This document shows, piece after piece, positions 56,514 to 63,907 of a stretch of DNA of 64,000 bases. The first letter of the stretch is position 1; every line of letters starts with the position of its first letter. The stretch spans positions 62,001 to 126,000 of the forward strand of contig LWTL01000123.1 in assembly GCA_002101235.1 (NCBI GenBank), in the 5' to 3' direction. The notes under the pieces are model-generated. The model made no database searches. It worked only from the letters and a program-made list of their open reading frames with translations, and was not told the origin of the DNA. Source of the DNA: Cycloclasticus sp. symbiont of Bathymodiolus heckerae. GTDB lineage: Bacteria > Pseudomonadota > Gammaproteobacteria > Methylococcales > Cycloclasticaceae. Position numbers and translations under genes: made by a program.

Positions 56514-56590
56514 TTGCTGATTCTTATAGAGAGAATTATAATGATCTATTGTTCAAACAGGCAGTCTTATTAGACTGCCTTTGCTTTTAT
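56514..56590 (+). promoter_or_regulatory. argD promoter followed by a terminator-like hairpin in the leader
   Basis: TTGCTG (56514-56519), 17 bp, TATAAT (56537-56542) is a good sigma-70 promoter with mRNA start near 56549. Ten bases later a perfect 9-bp stem AGGCAGTCT/AGACTGCCT (56559-56580, TATT loop) is followed by TTGCTTTTAT. That is an intrinsic-terminator shape upstream of argD (ATG 56605), so it may work as an attenuator. Confidence 0.6.
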
Positions 56591-56604
56591 ATATTGAGAC
56601 CATT

Positions 56605-57792
56605 ATGCATAATCACATCATGCCAACTTACGCATCACTTCCTGTTCGCTTTATTAAAGGCGAAGGCGCTTGGCTATGGGATGATAAAGGCGATAAATAT
56701 CTCGACGCACTATCCGGCATTGCCGTTTGTGGTTTAGGTCACGCCCATCCTGAAGTTGCTGCCGCCATCAGCGAGCAAGCTAACACGTTGATGCACACAT
56801 CAAACCTCTATTTCATTGATAAGCAAGAAAAACTAGCTAATAAACTCTGCGAACTCACCGGCATGAATGACGTGTTCTTTGGTAACTCTGGCGCGGAGGC
56901 CAATGAAGCGGCCATTAAAATAGCGCGCCGCTTTGCGCACAGCAAAAACATAAGCAACCCTGTTATCGTCACCATGAACAACAGTTTTCATGGTCGGACG
57001 TTAGCTACGCTAACCGCTACAGGCAATCCAAAAGTTAAAGAGGGGTTTGCGCCTTTGCCAAGCGGGTTTTGTCATATTCCATACAATGATATTCAAGCGC
57101 TTGAAGGCTTAGCTGAGCAACAGACTGACATTGTTGCTGTACTGGTTGAGCCCATTCAAGGCGAAAGCGGCATCAACATTCCTGCCACTGATTACCTTAA
57201 TAAGCTTCGTGAACTGTGCAACAAAAACGATTGGTTATTAATGCTGGATGAGATTCAAACAGGCATTGGCCGTACCGGTACTTTTTTAGCCAGTCAACAA
57301 AATAACATTAAAGCTGACGTTGTAACGCTTGCAAAAGCATTGGGCAATGGTGTGCCCATTGGCGCGTGTTTGACGCATGGAAAGGCAACGGGGCTGCTCA
57401 CTGCTGGCACTCACGGTTCTACGTTTGGCGGCAACCCGCTAGCTTGCGCTGCTGCGCTCACTGTTATTGATATTTTAGAACGCGATCAATTATCTAACAG
57501 GGCAACACAACTTGGCGAAAAAATGCGTGTTGCGTTTGAACAAGCGCTGAAAAATTGTGGTCACGTTGTCGAAATTAGGCAAAAAGGCCTAATGATCGGC
57601 ATTGAATTATCAACCCTATGCGTAGAACTCGTTAGTAAAGCATTAGAGCAAAACCTCCTTATTAATGTAGCAGGAGGGAATACCGTTCGCCTATTACCAC
57701 CACTAACAATAAGCGACGATGAGGCTGATAAAATCATCACCACTGTTAGCGACTTAATTATTGCTCATTCGCCTATTATTTCTGTACAGTAA
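56605..57792 (+). CDS. argD: acetylornithine transaminase
   Basis: 395 residues from ATG 56605; ATG 56620 is an alternative. Class III PLP aminotransferase: [46 protein letters not shown], the PLP Lys in [15 protein letters not shown], and [12 protein letters not shown]. It makes N-acetylornithine from N-acetylglutamate semialdehyde. argF starts 4 bp after its stop, so they share a transcript. Confidence 0.95.
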
Positions 57793-57796
57793 CCAC

Positions 57797-58699
57797 ATGA
57801 AACCACGTCATTTTATTACCCTCAACGATCTAAACGCCGACGAGCTGCGTTCAATCATTCAGCGTGCTATCGAATTAAAAAAAATGCGTGCTAATAATGA
57901 GGTTTACGAGCCACTTAAAAATAAAGTTCTAGCAATGATTTTTGAAAAGTCATCAACACGCACGCGTATTTCTTTTGAAGCAGGTATGGCACAATTTGGC
58001 GGCAGCGCATTATTTTTATCTCCCCGCGACACTCAGCTAGGCCGCGGCGAACCTATCGAAGATTCTGCGCGCGTTATTTCACGTATGGTAGATGGCATTA
58101 TGTTGCGCACCAACGATCACGAGACAGTGACAACCTTTGCTCAACATTCCAAGGTTCCCGTTATTAATGGCTTAACGGACCGCTTTCACCCTTGCCAATT
58201 ACTGGCTGATTTACAAACTTGGTTTGAACAACGCGGCGATATTCAAGGCAAGCGCGTTTGCTGGATTGGTGATGGCAATAATATGTGCCAATCGTATATG
58301 AATGCCGCAAAGCTGCTCAATTTCACACTAACCATTGCATGCCCTGCTGGGTATGAACCTGAGCAAGAATTACTAACTGCAACAGCGAGTCATGTTGAAG
58401 TATTTAACGACCCCAAACAAGCTGTTACAAATGCAGACCTTATCGTGACAGATGTTTGGGCTAGTATGGGCCAAGAAGATGAGCAAAAAGCTCGTGAAAA
58501 AGACTTTGCCAACTTCCAAGTTAACTCAACACTTATGGCGCTTGCTAAACCTGACGCTTTATTTATGCACTGTTTGCCTGCACATCGTGGCGAAGAAGTA
58601 AGTGCATCAGTACTTGATGGTAAACAAAGCGTCATATGGGACGAAGCCGAAAATCGCTTGCACGCCCAAAAAGCTCTTTTAGAATTTTTAATGAAATAA
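57797..58699 (+). CDS. argF: ornithine carbamoyltransferase
   Basis: 300 residues from ATG 57797 ([17 protein letters not shown]); the frame is open further inside argD but this ATG fits the family. Carbamoyl phosphate binding is shown by [15 protein letters not shown] (STRTR motif), [12 protein letters not shown] follows, and ornithine binding by [13 protein letters not shown]. It makes citrulline from ornithine. Part of argD-argF. Confidence 0.96.
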
Positions 58700-58732
58700 C
58701 TCATTCAATCCAAACTGACGACAGGACCTCCA

Positions 58733-59398
58733 GTGAAGAAACTATTTTTAGCAATTACCCTACTAACCAGCACAGCTATTATGGCTGAATCGGCCTATGT
58801 CTCTGACGAACTTGAAATCATGGTTCGTTCTGGCAAAAGTGCCGGACACCGTATTATTGCAACACTGAAAAGTGGCAAAAAGATTAATGTGATTGAGCGT
58901 GATCGTGACTCTGGCTATTCACGCGTTAAATTAAGCGAAACTCGCGAAGGCTGGGTTCTTTCTCGCCTACTACGCAAAACACCGTCCGCAAAATCTCGTT
59001 TAGCGAAAGCAGAGGCCTCACTAGCATCACTTAAATCAAAATTTAGCGCGTCTAGCAAACAGTTAACGGCATTAAGCGAACAAAAAGGAAGCCTGGACAC
59101 TGAAACAAGCTCCTTAAAGAAATCAAATGTTTCTTTATCTCGTGAACTTGAGCAGCTAAAAGAAACATCCAGTAATGCCGTCCAAATTCTTGAAGAGCGC
59201 AATCAACTTCAACAACGCGTAGTCACTATTGAGCGCGAGCTGGAAAGCCTAAAACGAGAAAACGATACTCTCGTCAATAGCGATGCCCAAGACTGGTTTT
59301 TAGTAGGTGCCGGTGTTTTATTATTCGGTATTCTTCTTGGTTTCATCCTACCTAAATTAAGCTGGCGCAAGAAAACATCTTGGCAGTCATCCTTCTAA
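58733..59398 (+). CDS. TIGR04211-type SH3-domain membrane protein (YgiM-like)
   Basis: 221 residues. A signal peptide (MKKLFLAITLLTSTAIMA) is followed by an SH3b domain (VRSGKSAGHRIIATLKSGKK, then REGWVLSRLL), a coiled coil (about 85-185) and a C-terminal membrane helix with a short basic tail (GVLLFGILLGFILPKLSWRK). This is the TIGR04211 layout. The start is GTG 58733 with AGGACC before it. The role is unknown. It sits between argF and ilvD on the same strand. Confidence 0.88.
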   Translation: MKKLFLAITLLTSTAIMAESAYVSDELEIMVRSGKSAGHRIIATLKSGKKINVIERDRDSGYSRVKLSETREGWVLSRLLRKTPSAKSRLAKAEASLASLKSKFSASSKQLTALSEQKGSLDTETSSLKKSNVSLSRELEQLKETSSNAVQILEERNQLQQRVVTIERELESLKRENDTLVNSDAQDWFLVGAGVLLFGILLGFILPKLSWRKKTSWQSSF

Positions 59399-59420
59399 AA
59401 CTTATTAACACGAGCACAAC

Positions 59421-61115
59421 ATGTCAGACAAAAAGAACGATAGCAGAAAATTTTCCTCCTTAGTAGTTGATGGTATGGAGCGCGCACCAAGTCGCGCCAT
59501 GCTGCACGCCGTTGGTTTTAAGAACGAAGATTTCAAAAAACCTCAAGTGGGCATTGCCTCCACGTGGGCTATGGTAACTCCGTGCAATATGCATATCAAC
59601 GAACTGGCCGATGACACTGCAATAGGCGTTAATGCCGCTGGCGGCAAAGGTGTTATTTTCAACACCATTACCATTTCAGACGGCATTTCTATGGGCACTG
59701 AGGGCATGAAATATTCATTGACCTCACGTGAAGTGATCGCCGATTCTATCGAAACAGTTGTTGGCTGCCAGGGCTTTGATGGTGTTGTTGCCATTGGTGG
59801 TTGCGATAAGAACATGCCTGGTTGCATGATCGCTCTTGCACGACTAAATCGCCCGGCTATTTTTGTTTACGGTGGCACCATCCTTTCTGGCTGTCACAAA
59901 CAACGCAAACTGGATATTATTTCTGTTTTTGAAGCTGTTGGCGCACGCGCAAACAACCAAATAGATGACGAAGAGTTATACGCTATTGAGTCCAAAGCCA
60001 TCCCTGGTGCGGGCTCTTGTGGCGGCATGTATACAGCCAACACCATGGCTTCTGCCATTGAAGCGATGGGAATGAGTTTGCCAAACAGCTCTGCTCAAGC
60101 TGCTATTTCTGCTGATAAAAAACAAGACTGTAAAGACGCTGGCGAAGCTGTTTTAAAGCTATTAGAACTCGACATAAAGCCTCGCGACATTATGACGCGT
60201 AAAGCGTTTGAAAATGCTATTACTGTTGTTATCGCCTTAGGCGGATCAACTAATGCCGTACTGCATTTACTTGCAATGGCACACAGCGCTGAGGTTGAAT
60301 TAAAATTAACCGACTTTACAGAGATCGGCAAACGCGTCCCCATGGTCGCTGATTTAAAGCCAAGCGGTAAATACTCTATGGGCGAGTTGATCGATATTGG
60401 CGGCATTCAACCGTTAATGAAAATTTTATTAGACGCTGGTTTATTACACGGCGAGTGCCTCACTGTGACAGGCAAAACACTAGCTGAAAATTTAGCGGAT
60501 GTTGCACCATACCCAGATAACCAAGACGTTATTCGCTCACTTGATAACGCCATTAAAAAAGACAGCCATCTTGTTGTTTTACATGGCAACCTTGCAAGCG
60601 AAGGCGCAGTAGCAAAAATCACCGGCAAAGAAGGCTTAGGCTTTACTGGCACAGCCCGCGTATTTGATTCTGAAGAAGAATCAATGGCGAGCATTATTGC
60701 CGGCTCCATCAAAGAAGGCGATGTTCTGGTTATTCGTTACGAAGGCCCCAAAGGCGGCCCCGGCATGCGCGAAATGCTCGCACCTACCTCCGCTATTATG
60801 GGTCGCGGCTTAGGTGACAAAGTAGCCTTTATTACAGACGGTCGATTCTCCGGTGGTACACACGGCTTTGTTGTTGGGCACATTACACCTGAGGCTTACC
60901 AAGGCGGCGCTATTGCCATTGTAGAAGATGGCGACACCATTACTATTGATAGCGTAAAAAATGAACTTCGATTGCATCTAGACGACGACGTGATTAAACA
61001 GCGTCTTACAAGCTGGGTTCAGCCTGCACCGCGTTATACACGAGGTGTACTTGCAAAATACGCAAAGTTAGTAAGTTCCGCATCTGAAGGCGCAGTCACC
61101 GATAAGGGTGAATAA
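59421..61115 (+). CDS. ilvD: dihydroxy-acid dehydratase
   Basis: 564 residues. Iron-sulfur ligands are visible in [11 protein letters not shown] (about 132-142) and [12 protein letters not shown]; the C-terminal part carries [11 protein letters not shown] and [17 protein letters not shown]. It forms 2-keto acids in valine, isoleucine and leucine synthesis. The start ATG 59421 is 22 bp after the SH3 gene. This is the short-form type related to the 2Fe-2S IlvD/Edd family. Confidence 0.96.
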
Positions 61116-61127
61116 GCCTCCAAACCG

Positions 61128-62291
61128 TTGATCAACCCTGTTAATACATTAGATATGATGCGTGCCTTAATCGGCACGCCATCGGTCAGCAGCACCAGTA
61201 ATAGACACGACCAAAGCAACCTGCCCGTTATTCATTTATTGGCAGACTGGCTTGAGAACTTAGGCTTCAGCGTTGACATTCATACCCTTGAAAACCAGCC
61301 CGGAAAAGCCAACCTTATTGCCACTATCGGCCCTCGTCATAAAGGTGCTGATGGACTTATTTTGTCAGGCCATACGGACACGGTTCCTTATGACGACAGT
61401 CACTGGTTGCAAGACCCGTTCAAGTTAACCGAAAAAGATAATAATTTTTACGGCTTAGGCAGTACCGACATGAAATCCTTTTTTGCACTCGCTATTAATA
61501 CGGTTGCAAAATTCAAAGCATCGGATTTCAAACGCCCACTGACTATATTAGCAACAGCTGATGAAGAAAGCGCTATGAGCGGCGCACAAGCTCTACTTAA
61601 AGAACAATTACAACACGCCAAGTATGCCGTTATTGGCGAGCCCACGGCCCTCACTCCTATTCGCATGCACAAAGGCGTGATGATGGAGTCACTCATTGTG
61701 ACAGGGCATGCAGGGCATTCAAGCAATCCCCACTTGGGTGCTAGTGCAACGGAAGGAATGCACCGTGTAATCAATGAGCTATTGTTGTGGCGAAATGAAC
61801 TGCAGACGAAATATCAAAACCCTGTTTTTGATGTCTCCTCACCCACTATGAACATCGGATCAATTCATGGTGGCGACAATCCAAACCGCATTTGCTCACA
61901 TTGCGAAACCCAAATAGATATTCGACCGCTGCCCGGTATGGACATCAATTCTATACGCGCAGACCTACAAAATCGTTTAGAACAAATACTCCCGGAAGAA
62001 AGCAAATTAAAACTAGCTTACCGCCCTATATTTTGTGGCGTACCACCGTTTGAAACACCCGCTGATGCAAAGCTCACCCGATTAATCGAAAGCATTACGG
62101 GTAAAGCGGCTGAGTCCGTTGCTTTTGGTACAGAAGCACCCTATTTGAGTAAGCTGGGCATAGAAACCATTGTGATAGGCCCTGGTAATATTGACCAAGC
62201 ACATCAACCCAACGAATTTATTCCCGGCAATCAAATAACGCCTTATTGCAATTTTTTGCAAAATCTAATACGAAAAATATGCATTAACTAG
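61128..62291 (+). CDS. argE: acetylornithine deacetylase
   Basis: 387 residues of the M20 peptidase family. Metal ligands lie in LSGHTDTVPYDD (His, Asp), TADEESAMSG (Glu-Glu) and IGEPTALTP, and FGTEAPYLSKLGIETIVIGPG near the end. ArgE releases acetate from N-acetylornithine in the linear arginine route. The start is TTG 61128, favoured because the family begins about there; ATG 61155 is the alternative. It lies 12 bp after ilvD. Confidence 0.94.
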   Translation: MINPVNTLDMMRALIGTPSVSSTSNRHDQSNLPVIHLLADWLENLGFSVDIHTLENQPGKANLIATIGPRHKGADGLILSGHTDTVPYDDSHWLQDPFKLTEKDNNFYGLGSTDMKSFFALAINTVAKFKASDFKRPLTILATADEESAMSGAQALLKEQLQHAKYAVIGEPTALTPIRMHKGVMMESLIVTGHAGHSSNPHLGASATEGMHRVINELLLWRNELQTKYQNPVFDVSSPTMNIGSIHGGDNPNRICSHCETQIDIRPLPGMDINSIRADLQNRLEQILPEESKLKLAYRPIFCGVPPFETPADAKLTRLIESITGKAAESVAFGTEAPYLSKLGIETIVIGPGNIDQAHQPNEFIPGNQITPYCNFLQNLIRKICIN

Positions 62292-62295
62292 ATAC

Positions 62296-62347
62296 AAACG
62301 CAATCAAAGCGACCAGTTTTTGCGTTTTATGCAAATAAAGCTATAAT
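62296..62347 (+). promoter_or_regulatory. argA promoter with overlapping inverted repeats
   Basis: TTGCGT (62320-62325), 16 bp, TATAAT (62342-62347). The ATG at 62354 is six bases after the -10, so the mRNA should begin at or beside it. AAACGCAA (62296-62303) and TTGCGTTT (62320-62327) form an 8-bp inverted repeat whose right arm covers the -35; TTTGC-N7-GCAAA (62319-62335) overlaps it. Candidate operators. Confidence 0.6.
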
Positions 62348-62353
62348 TAATGC

Positions 62354-63907
62354 ATGTTAAACGATGCAAACTTCATTATTCAGCAATTTGGCGGCGTAAA
62401 AGCCCTCGCAAGCGCTATTGGTAAAGACCCCGCAACCATCTACCGCTGGACATACCCTAAACACAAAGGCGGAACAGGCGGTCACATCCCGCCCTCTGCA
62501 TTGCGCAAAGTAAATGAAGCCGCGGTATTGCTTAACATTGAGATCACCCTTAACGAACAAGGACAAGCGCCCTCAATAACGCAAAACTCTGCATTACACC
62601 CTCACCAGTTTATTAATTGGTTTCGCAGCACAGCCCCCTATATTCATGCGCATCGCGGAAAAACGTTTGTTATTAATTTCAGTGGCGATGCTGTTGATGA
62701 CCCTCTGTTCTCTACTCTTATTGAAGATTTCGCCTTACTAAACAGCCTCGGCATTCGCTTAATTCTCGTACATGGCATGCGCCCACAGCTCGAAAAAAAA
62801 TTAATCGCTAGTCGCCACGCTAGCCAAGTTGTTCAGCACTTACGCATTACCGACAAACACACGCTCGAATTAGCAAAAGAAGCCTCCGGTACTGTCCGAA
62901 TTAATATTGAAGCGAGGCTTTCAACTAGCTTGGCTAACACGCCTATGGCCGATTCTGATATTCGCGTCACATCAGGAAATTTCATTGTTGCGAAACCGCT
63001 CGGCGTTATAAACGGTGTTGATCATCAGTTTACTGGCGAAGTCCGTCGTGTTGATACCAGCTCTATCTCAAAAAATTTAGATGCAGGCCATATCGTTTTA
63101 GTCTCACCGATTGGGTTCTCACCCACTGGCGATGTTTTCAATTTACGCAGTGAAGAAGTTGCCACGGCAATTGCTACCGCAATAAAAGCCGACAAGCTCA
63201 TTCTAATGACCGAGAAAACAGAGCTTTTAACCACTGAAAACACTTTAATACGTCAACTCACGACGCAACAAGCGCAAAGCCTTCTTGAAGAAAAAAACAA
63301 CCAAGACGATACCTGCCTGCATTTACAAGAAGCCATTAGAGCTAGCACACTGGGCGTAAAACGTATTCACCTCATTAGCCGTAAAATAAACGGCGGCTTA
63401 CAACTGGAGCTGTTTACGCGACAAGGGTCTGGGACGCTCATCAGCATACAACCATTTGAAGATGCGCGCCTTGCTACCGTTGATGATATTCAGGGCATTA
63501 TTGAACTCATTAGACCTCTGGAATCGCGTGGTTTACTCGCTTATCGCACATCAGAAGCTATTGAAATGGATATTGATAAATTTCATATTATTGAACAAGA
63601 TGGCCTCATAACAACCTGCGCGGCACTCTACGAATACCCTCAAGAAAAAATGGGAGAGCTTGCTTGCGTGGCGGTTCACCCTAGTTACCGAACCGGCGAA
63701 CGTGGAGATTATTTATTAAGCTTAATCGAAAACAAAGCCCGCTCAAAAGGTCTCGATACGCTCTTTGTACTCACTACTCAAAGTAGCCACTGGTTTGCCG
63801 AAAAGGGGTTCAATCCCGCTACAATTAATGAGCTTCCCCAAGAGAAACAGTGTAATTACAATCAAACGCGGCGATCAAACATCCTCATTAAGCGCTTAAA
63901 CAAATAA
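62354..63907 (+). CDS. argA: N-acetylglutamate synthase ArgA fused to an N-terminal helix-turn-helix domain
   Basis: 517 residues, about 75 longer than E. coli ArgA. Residues 1-63 form a phage Cro/YdaS-like helix-turn-helix (FGGVKALASAIGKDPATIYR and HIPPSALRKVNEAA). A linker follows to about 84, then a complete ArgA: the amino-acid kinase domain from AHRGKTFVINFSGDAVDD to about 365, and the GNAT domain from about 370, with VAVHPSYRTGERGDYLLS and FVLTTQSSHWFAEKGF. No in-frame ATG, GTG or TTG lies near the ArgA part, so it is a true fusion. It makes N-acetylglutamate in the first step of arginine synthesis. Regulatory use of the HTH is inferred. Confidence 0.92.
   Translation: MLNDANFIIQQFGGVKALASAIGKDPATIYRWTYPKHKGGTGGHIPPSALRKVNEAAVLLNIEITLNEQGQAPSITQNSALHPHQFINWFRSTAPYIHAHRGKTFVINFSGDAVDDPLFSTLIEDFALLNSLGIRLILVHGMRPQLEKKLIASRHASQVVQHLRITDKHTLELAKEASGTVRINIEARLSTSLANTPMADSDIRVTSGNFIVAKPLGVINGVDHQFTGEVRRVDTSSISKNLDAGHIVLVSPIGFSPTGDVFNLRSEEVATAIATAIKADKLILMTEKTELLTTENTLIRQLTTQQAQSLLEEKNNQDDTCLHLQEAIRASTLGVKRIHLISRKINGGLQLELFTRQGSGTLISIQPFEDARLATVDDIQGIIELIRPLESRGLLAYRTSEAIEMDIDKFHIIEQDGLITTCAALYEYPQEKMGELACVAVHPSYRTGERGDYLLSLIENKARSKGLDTLFVLTTQSSHWFAEKGFNPATINELPQEKQCNYNQTRRSNILIKRLNK

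Follow-up and report, generated by a model that had tools for sequence, protein, structure and literature searches.

Organization of the argA Locus

The DNA analyzed here (the window) is a stretch of 64,000 nucleotides from a contig of the Cycloclasticus sp. symbiont of Bathymodiolus heckerae. In this window argD, argF, argE, and argA lie together (56581–63907), with ilvD and a gene for a small SH3-like membrane protein between them; the names of the genes in this segment come only from reading their translations. The argA reading frame (62354–63907, + strand) is open from its ATG start to the stop codon at 63905–63907 and encodes a protein of 517 amino acids. Residues 1–64 form a helix-turn-helix (HTH) domain, residues 65–81 a linker, and residues 82–517 a complete classical ArgA, the N-acetylglutamate synthase (NAGS) that catalyzes the first step of arginine synthesis. 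The HTH-ArgA fusion in Cycloclasticus is real: the open frame and the family matches described below confirm the original prediction of an HTH joined in frame to a full ArgA. Because argE precedes argA in 9 of 14 HTH-less relatives, as it does in the fusion genomes, the arrangement argE-argA seems to be older than the fusion.

It had also been proposed that the enzymatic part has no start of its own. This is valid for the genus as a whole, since four relatives (L007, L011, L012, L013) have no ATG, GTG, or TTG at all within codons 2–110, and the candidate starts found in the window genome are not conserved across relatives. It does not hold literally in the window genome, where TTG stands in frame at codons 50 and 59, ahead of the enzymatic part, in neither case with a recognizable ribosome-binding site.

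A Phage Cro-Type Domain at the N-Terminus

The HTH domain (62354–62545, + strand) has helices at residues 5–12, 15–22, 26–31 (the putative recognition helix), and 47–59. Profile matches, phage relatives, and the predicted fold together identify it as an HTH of the phage Cro kind, with the P22/N15 Cro fold and membership of the "carph-isopro" family. The isolated HTH (68 amino acids) scores 38 bits against the carph-isopro model NF046037, a value equal to the cut-off; within the full window protein the score is 31.3 bits, below the cut-off, and the model matches all 16 relatives. The Pfam families P22_Cro and YdaS_toxin also match 16 of 16 relatives, the window copy lying below their gathering scores. 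When 50,697 phage records were searched with the HTH by tblastn, six phages were matched, three of them with a Cro annotation, and in two Paracoccus phages the gene for the HTH relative is divergent from an adjoining CI-like repressor gene. Twenty more loci of HTH relatives come from viral contigs. Comparison of the HTH profile with that of its relatives from phages and mobile elements gave a probability of 99.9 at 42% identity.

Among known folds, the structure predicted for the HTH (pLDDT 91.5) has its best matches in P22 Cro (Z = 7.5), N15 Cro (7.2), and Xfaso1 Cro (6.8), all other rows reaching at most 5.3 and all Z values being below 8. Xfaso1 Cro and N15 Cro likewise take the top ranks in Foldseek, with E-values above 0.001. 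A search of the HTH profile against the sequences of solved structures returned nothing significant. In the relatives the segment PATIYRWTY is nearly invariant, and RWTY and the recognition segment are close to invariant. No protein of the genus other than ArgA is a significant match to this HTH family.

The ArgA Enzyme and Its Arginine Site

The remainder of the protein matches the ArgA equivalogs NF003641 (612.9 bits against a cut-off of 344, residues 82–515) and TIGR01890 (552.6 bits). It comprises the N-terminal helix and amino-acid-kinase domain (residues 82–365; 62597–63448, + strand) followed by a GNAT acetyltransferase domain (residues 366–517; 63449–63904, + strand). Classical NAGS is recognized by the motif E-(L/I)-(F/M)-(T/S)-X-X-G-X-G-T together with a key K and E. 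The arginine-binding motif of the window protein is ELFTRQGSGT (residues 352–361; 63407–63436, + strand), while K281 (63194–63196, + strand) is the equivalent of the arginine-binding K201 of Neisseria gonorrhoeae NAGS and E352 that of E270 in the same enzyme. ELFTRQGSGT, K281, and E352 are invariant at the defined positions in 16 relatives. In classical NAGS the kinase domain nucleates a hexamer of D3 symmetry, and arginine binds near the N-terminal helix and moves this helix, the ring changing by about 10–20 Å in a homolog (PMC4490483). By analogy with classical NAGS, the Cycloclasticus protein should be a hexamer too, and up to six Cro domains would therefore be expected on it.

Selection on the Fusion and Its Distribution

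The domain is retained by selection: the median dN/dS of the HTH is 0.14 (core, 0.12), compared with 0.99 in the linker and 0.06–0.07 in the enzyme domains. These figures are rough, as dS is high, and only pairs with dS below 3 were used. The linker (62546–62596, + strand) is variable, with a mean identity of 10% and a dN/dS of about 1, and confidence of the structure model is low at residues 67–81, so that it is probably flexible. The distances of HTH and enzyme between genomes correlate (r = 0.76), which is what joint descent would give.

Of 18 genomes of the genus, 16 carry the full fusion in an uninterrupted frame of 511–523 amino acids. The same HTH stands on argA in all 17 genomes from which the gene was recovered, the seventeenth (G003) being one in which the frame runs off the contig after HTH residue 50; the eighteenth, 83% complete, gave no argA match. 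That a frame or assembly error fused two separate genes might be suspected from the closest relatives of the HTH, which are separate small genes. With the same uninterrupted frame in 16 full-length relatives, purifying selection on the HTH, and the correlated distances, the chance of such an error is negligible and this reading was dismissed. Loss of HTH conservation in relatives, raised beforehand as a further reason for doubt, is likewise contradicted by the presence of the same HTH in 17 genomes and by its dN/dS of 0.12–0.14.

The named relatives that possess the whole fusion are labeled Cycloclasticus, with the addition of one Methylococcaceae bin. The wider range of the architecture was tested by profile searches of 251 genomes of the order and 369 of the class, and no full-length fusion outside the genus was present among the matches listed. 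Every other listed match starts no earlier than residue 40, in nearly every case around 65–90, and therefore lacks the HTH. A single-sequence search of 321 class genomes with the HTH matched the window's own genome only. Seven other argA loci have long N-terminal frames that, read by eye, contain no HTH and look like out-of-frame readings of neighboring DNA. Thus, among the matches listed, the architecture is confined to the genus. In the literature covered, which took in few subscription journals, an HTH-ArgA fusion is nowhere described.

An Operator Shared with Phage cro Genes

A single strongly conserved block lies upstream of argA in the genus, approximately TTTGCGTTTTNYGCAA and about 35 bases ahead of the start codon. 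In the window it is a palindromic operator, TTGCGTTTTATGCAA, at 62320–62334 (no strand assigned; TTTGCGTTTTATGCAAA over 62319–62335). A putative -35 hexamer, TTGCGT (62320–62325, + strand), is located within the operator, and a putative -10 hexamer, TATAAT (62342–62347, + strand), follows 16 bp after it; most relatives have a box similar to TATAAT after the operator. A further, putative half-site, ACGCAA (62298–62303), precedes the operator by about two turns of the helix, a resembling half-site being present at -54 to -58 in about 10 of 16 genomes.

Versions of the palindrome TTGCG-N5-CGCAA occur upstream of argA in all 17 genomes. Fourteen of the 16 fusion genes have it with at most two mismatches (shuffle mean 0.18). 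The operators of L010 and L012 are imperfect, that of L012 being a three-mismatch version, and those of L013 and L014 are shifted by 8 bp; L015 has a perfect 16-bp version, TTGCGTTAAAACGCAA, and the sequence upstream of the truncated gene in G003 carries TTGCGTTTTATGCAA. None of 14 HTH-less argA genes has the palindrome at up to two mismatches. The pattern was derived from argA first and then tested on 24 phage-type cro loci, of which six have a perfect palindrome (shuffles, 0.01) and ten have one with at most one mismatch (shuffle mean 0.12), counts that are a guide and not a probability, because shuffling retained nothing but base composition and there is close kinship among several of the loci. 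Examples of the 15-bp palindrome upstream of phage-type cro are TTGCGTTTAGCGCAA (L083), TTGCGATTATCGCAA (L040, a bacterial contig), and TTGCGAAAACCGCAA (L094).

The operator is essentially a unique site in the genome. The strict pattern TTTGCRTTTWNNGCAA occurs once each in the window's own genome (G000), G008, and G017, every time at argA, and site counts at two mismatches are little above those of a reversed control pattern. A wider arginine regulon was considered and rejected: the additional strict or near matches examined (G009, G014, G000, G008), among them the extra site in G009 and the one in G014, both within reading frames, are situated inside reading frames or in a terminator-like repeat.

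In the window (62342–62356), TATAAT ends six bases before the ATG, and there is no Shine-Dalgarno sequence. The short distance suggests that the argA mRNA may be leaderless or nearly so. Farther upstream, the 3′ end of argE holds a second palindrome-like stretch, TTGCAATTTTTTGCAA (62246–62261), separated from the operator by 74 bp, or about seven turns of the helix; most relatives have comparable stretches, at distances that vary. The stretch in the window could be another site of binding, or it could simply be coding sequence (Cys-Asn-Phe-Leu-Gln).

Probable Control of argA by Its Own Product

Taken together, these features suggest, with a probability of roughly 85%, that the fused ArgA binds DNA at its own promoter and controls that promoter negatively. 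Action of the HTH at its own promoter had been predicted for the region 62296–62354; the operator lies within this region, and together with the Cro identity and fold and the purifying selection on the domain it gives strong support to binding there. A phage-type cro gene would have been fused to argA in the ancestor of Cycloclasticus, with a Cro-type operator standing at the promoter. The fusion protein would synthesize N-acetylglutamate, and its Cro domain would bind TTGCG-N5-CGCAA over its own -35 region and repress argA, since binding at this position should block RNA polymerase. In this proposal argA would be the single main target of an autoregulatory trigger enzyme. With as many as six Cro domains held on flexible linkers, the hexamer would allow the pairing that a palindrome needs.

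Two other functions of the HTH can be weighed against the same evidence. The domain might bind DNA but activate argA, or control mainly other genes; operators upstream of a -35 box can activate, and half-sites are present further upstream. Here, however, the -35 hexamer is itself part of the operator, and the remaining strict or near matches examined sit in reading frames or a terminator-like repeat, which makes this reading improbable. Even less probable is that the HTH has lost DNA binding and has become a structural or oligomerization domain, the palindrome being read by another regulator. A precedent of a kind appears in the fold list, where the enzyme methylphosphonate synthase has a similar helical domain. 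Against this stand the near invariance of RWTY and the recognition segment, the match between the palindrome and that of free-standing HTH relatives, its absence before HTH-less argA genes, and the fact that no second protein of the genus belongs significantly to the HTH family.

Whether negative control of argA by its product would also respond to a ligand is a separate question, arginine or acetyl-CoA state having been put forward earlier as possible signals. The flexible linker ties the HTH just before the helix that arginine moves in NAGS, so arginine could alter the reach of two Cro domains to one palindrome, and repression might be adjusted by the very signal that inhibits catalysis. Given the intact arginine site and the tethered HTH, such an effect is plausible, at about even odds. 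In its fullest form, the proposal is that Cro domain and operator were domesticated together on an allosteric hexamer, so that a single arginine-driven shape change would both inhibit catalysis and repress the gene, a convergent counterpart of ArgR built out of an enzyme and a phage switch; we put this just below an even chance. Constant autorepression is a serious rival to the arginine-coupled model. The Cro domain could hold the level of ArgA constant (dose homeostasis) without ligand control, arginine affecting catalysis alone. Phage Cro works without a ligand, and any allosteric coupling would suffer from the length and probable flexibility of the unconserved linker. Retention of the domain on an arginine-sensing ring whose N-terminal helix is mobile in a homolog (PMC4490483) speaks against constant autorepression without being decisive, and this reading keeps a considerable likelihood, somewhat short of even.

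Relationship to Known Systems

The earlier view of the protein as a trigger enzyme in the style of PutA or BirA fits the presence of a complete enzyme and a predicted DNA-binding domain in one protein. Like PutA, BirA, and NadR, the fused ArgA is an enzyme with its own DNA-binding domain, and PutA of E. coli has a single target, its own locus (PMC8249747). The fused ArgA differs from all three in the enzyme, in the HTH, and in the phage Cro origin of the latter with a matching Cro-type operator. With phage Cro proteins (P22/N15 fold, carph-isopro) it has in common the sequence, the fold, and a 15-bp operator upstream of its own start; unlike them, it carries the domain on a metabolic enzyme at a bacterial arginine locus, and its operator lies in the -35 region, whereas in phage-type genes the operator is often nearer -10. 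The fusion would illustrate how a transcription factor can originate, by the joining of a phage switch protein and a matching operator to a metabolic enzyme, kept by selection throughout a genus. As a clear test case, it also bears on the origin of trigger enzymes and on the question whether the activity of an enzyme and transcription can both be governed through a single allosteric transition.

In ArgR the DNA-binding domain is N-terminal, and the core binds arginine and forms a hexamer. The similarity of the fused ArgA to this plan is one of plan only and not of homology, the Arg_repressor domain (PF01316) having no match in the fused protein, and the target of the fused ArgA looks single, with no regulon. 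No genome among 18 of the genus or 81 of the order matches PF01316, while controls such as E. coli do. The fusion points to a way in which arginine synthesis may be controlled in a group without a recognizable ArgR. The idea that it took the place of an ArgR lost in the genus was considered and rejected, because ArgR is absent from the whole order sample.

Other fused forms of NAGS include an ArgH-NAGS fusion and bifunctional NAGS/K (PMC4490483). In these NAGS is combined with added catalytic functions, whereas the fused ArgA of Cycloclasticus adds a putative DNA-binding domain instead. On the phage side, more TTGC...GCAA sites stand close to the start of another gene in the viral contig of L083 (542–590), as if its Cro or CI might have several operators.
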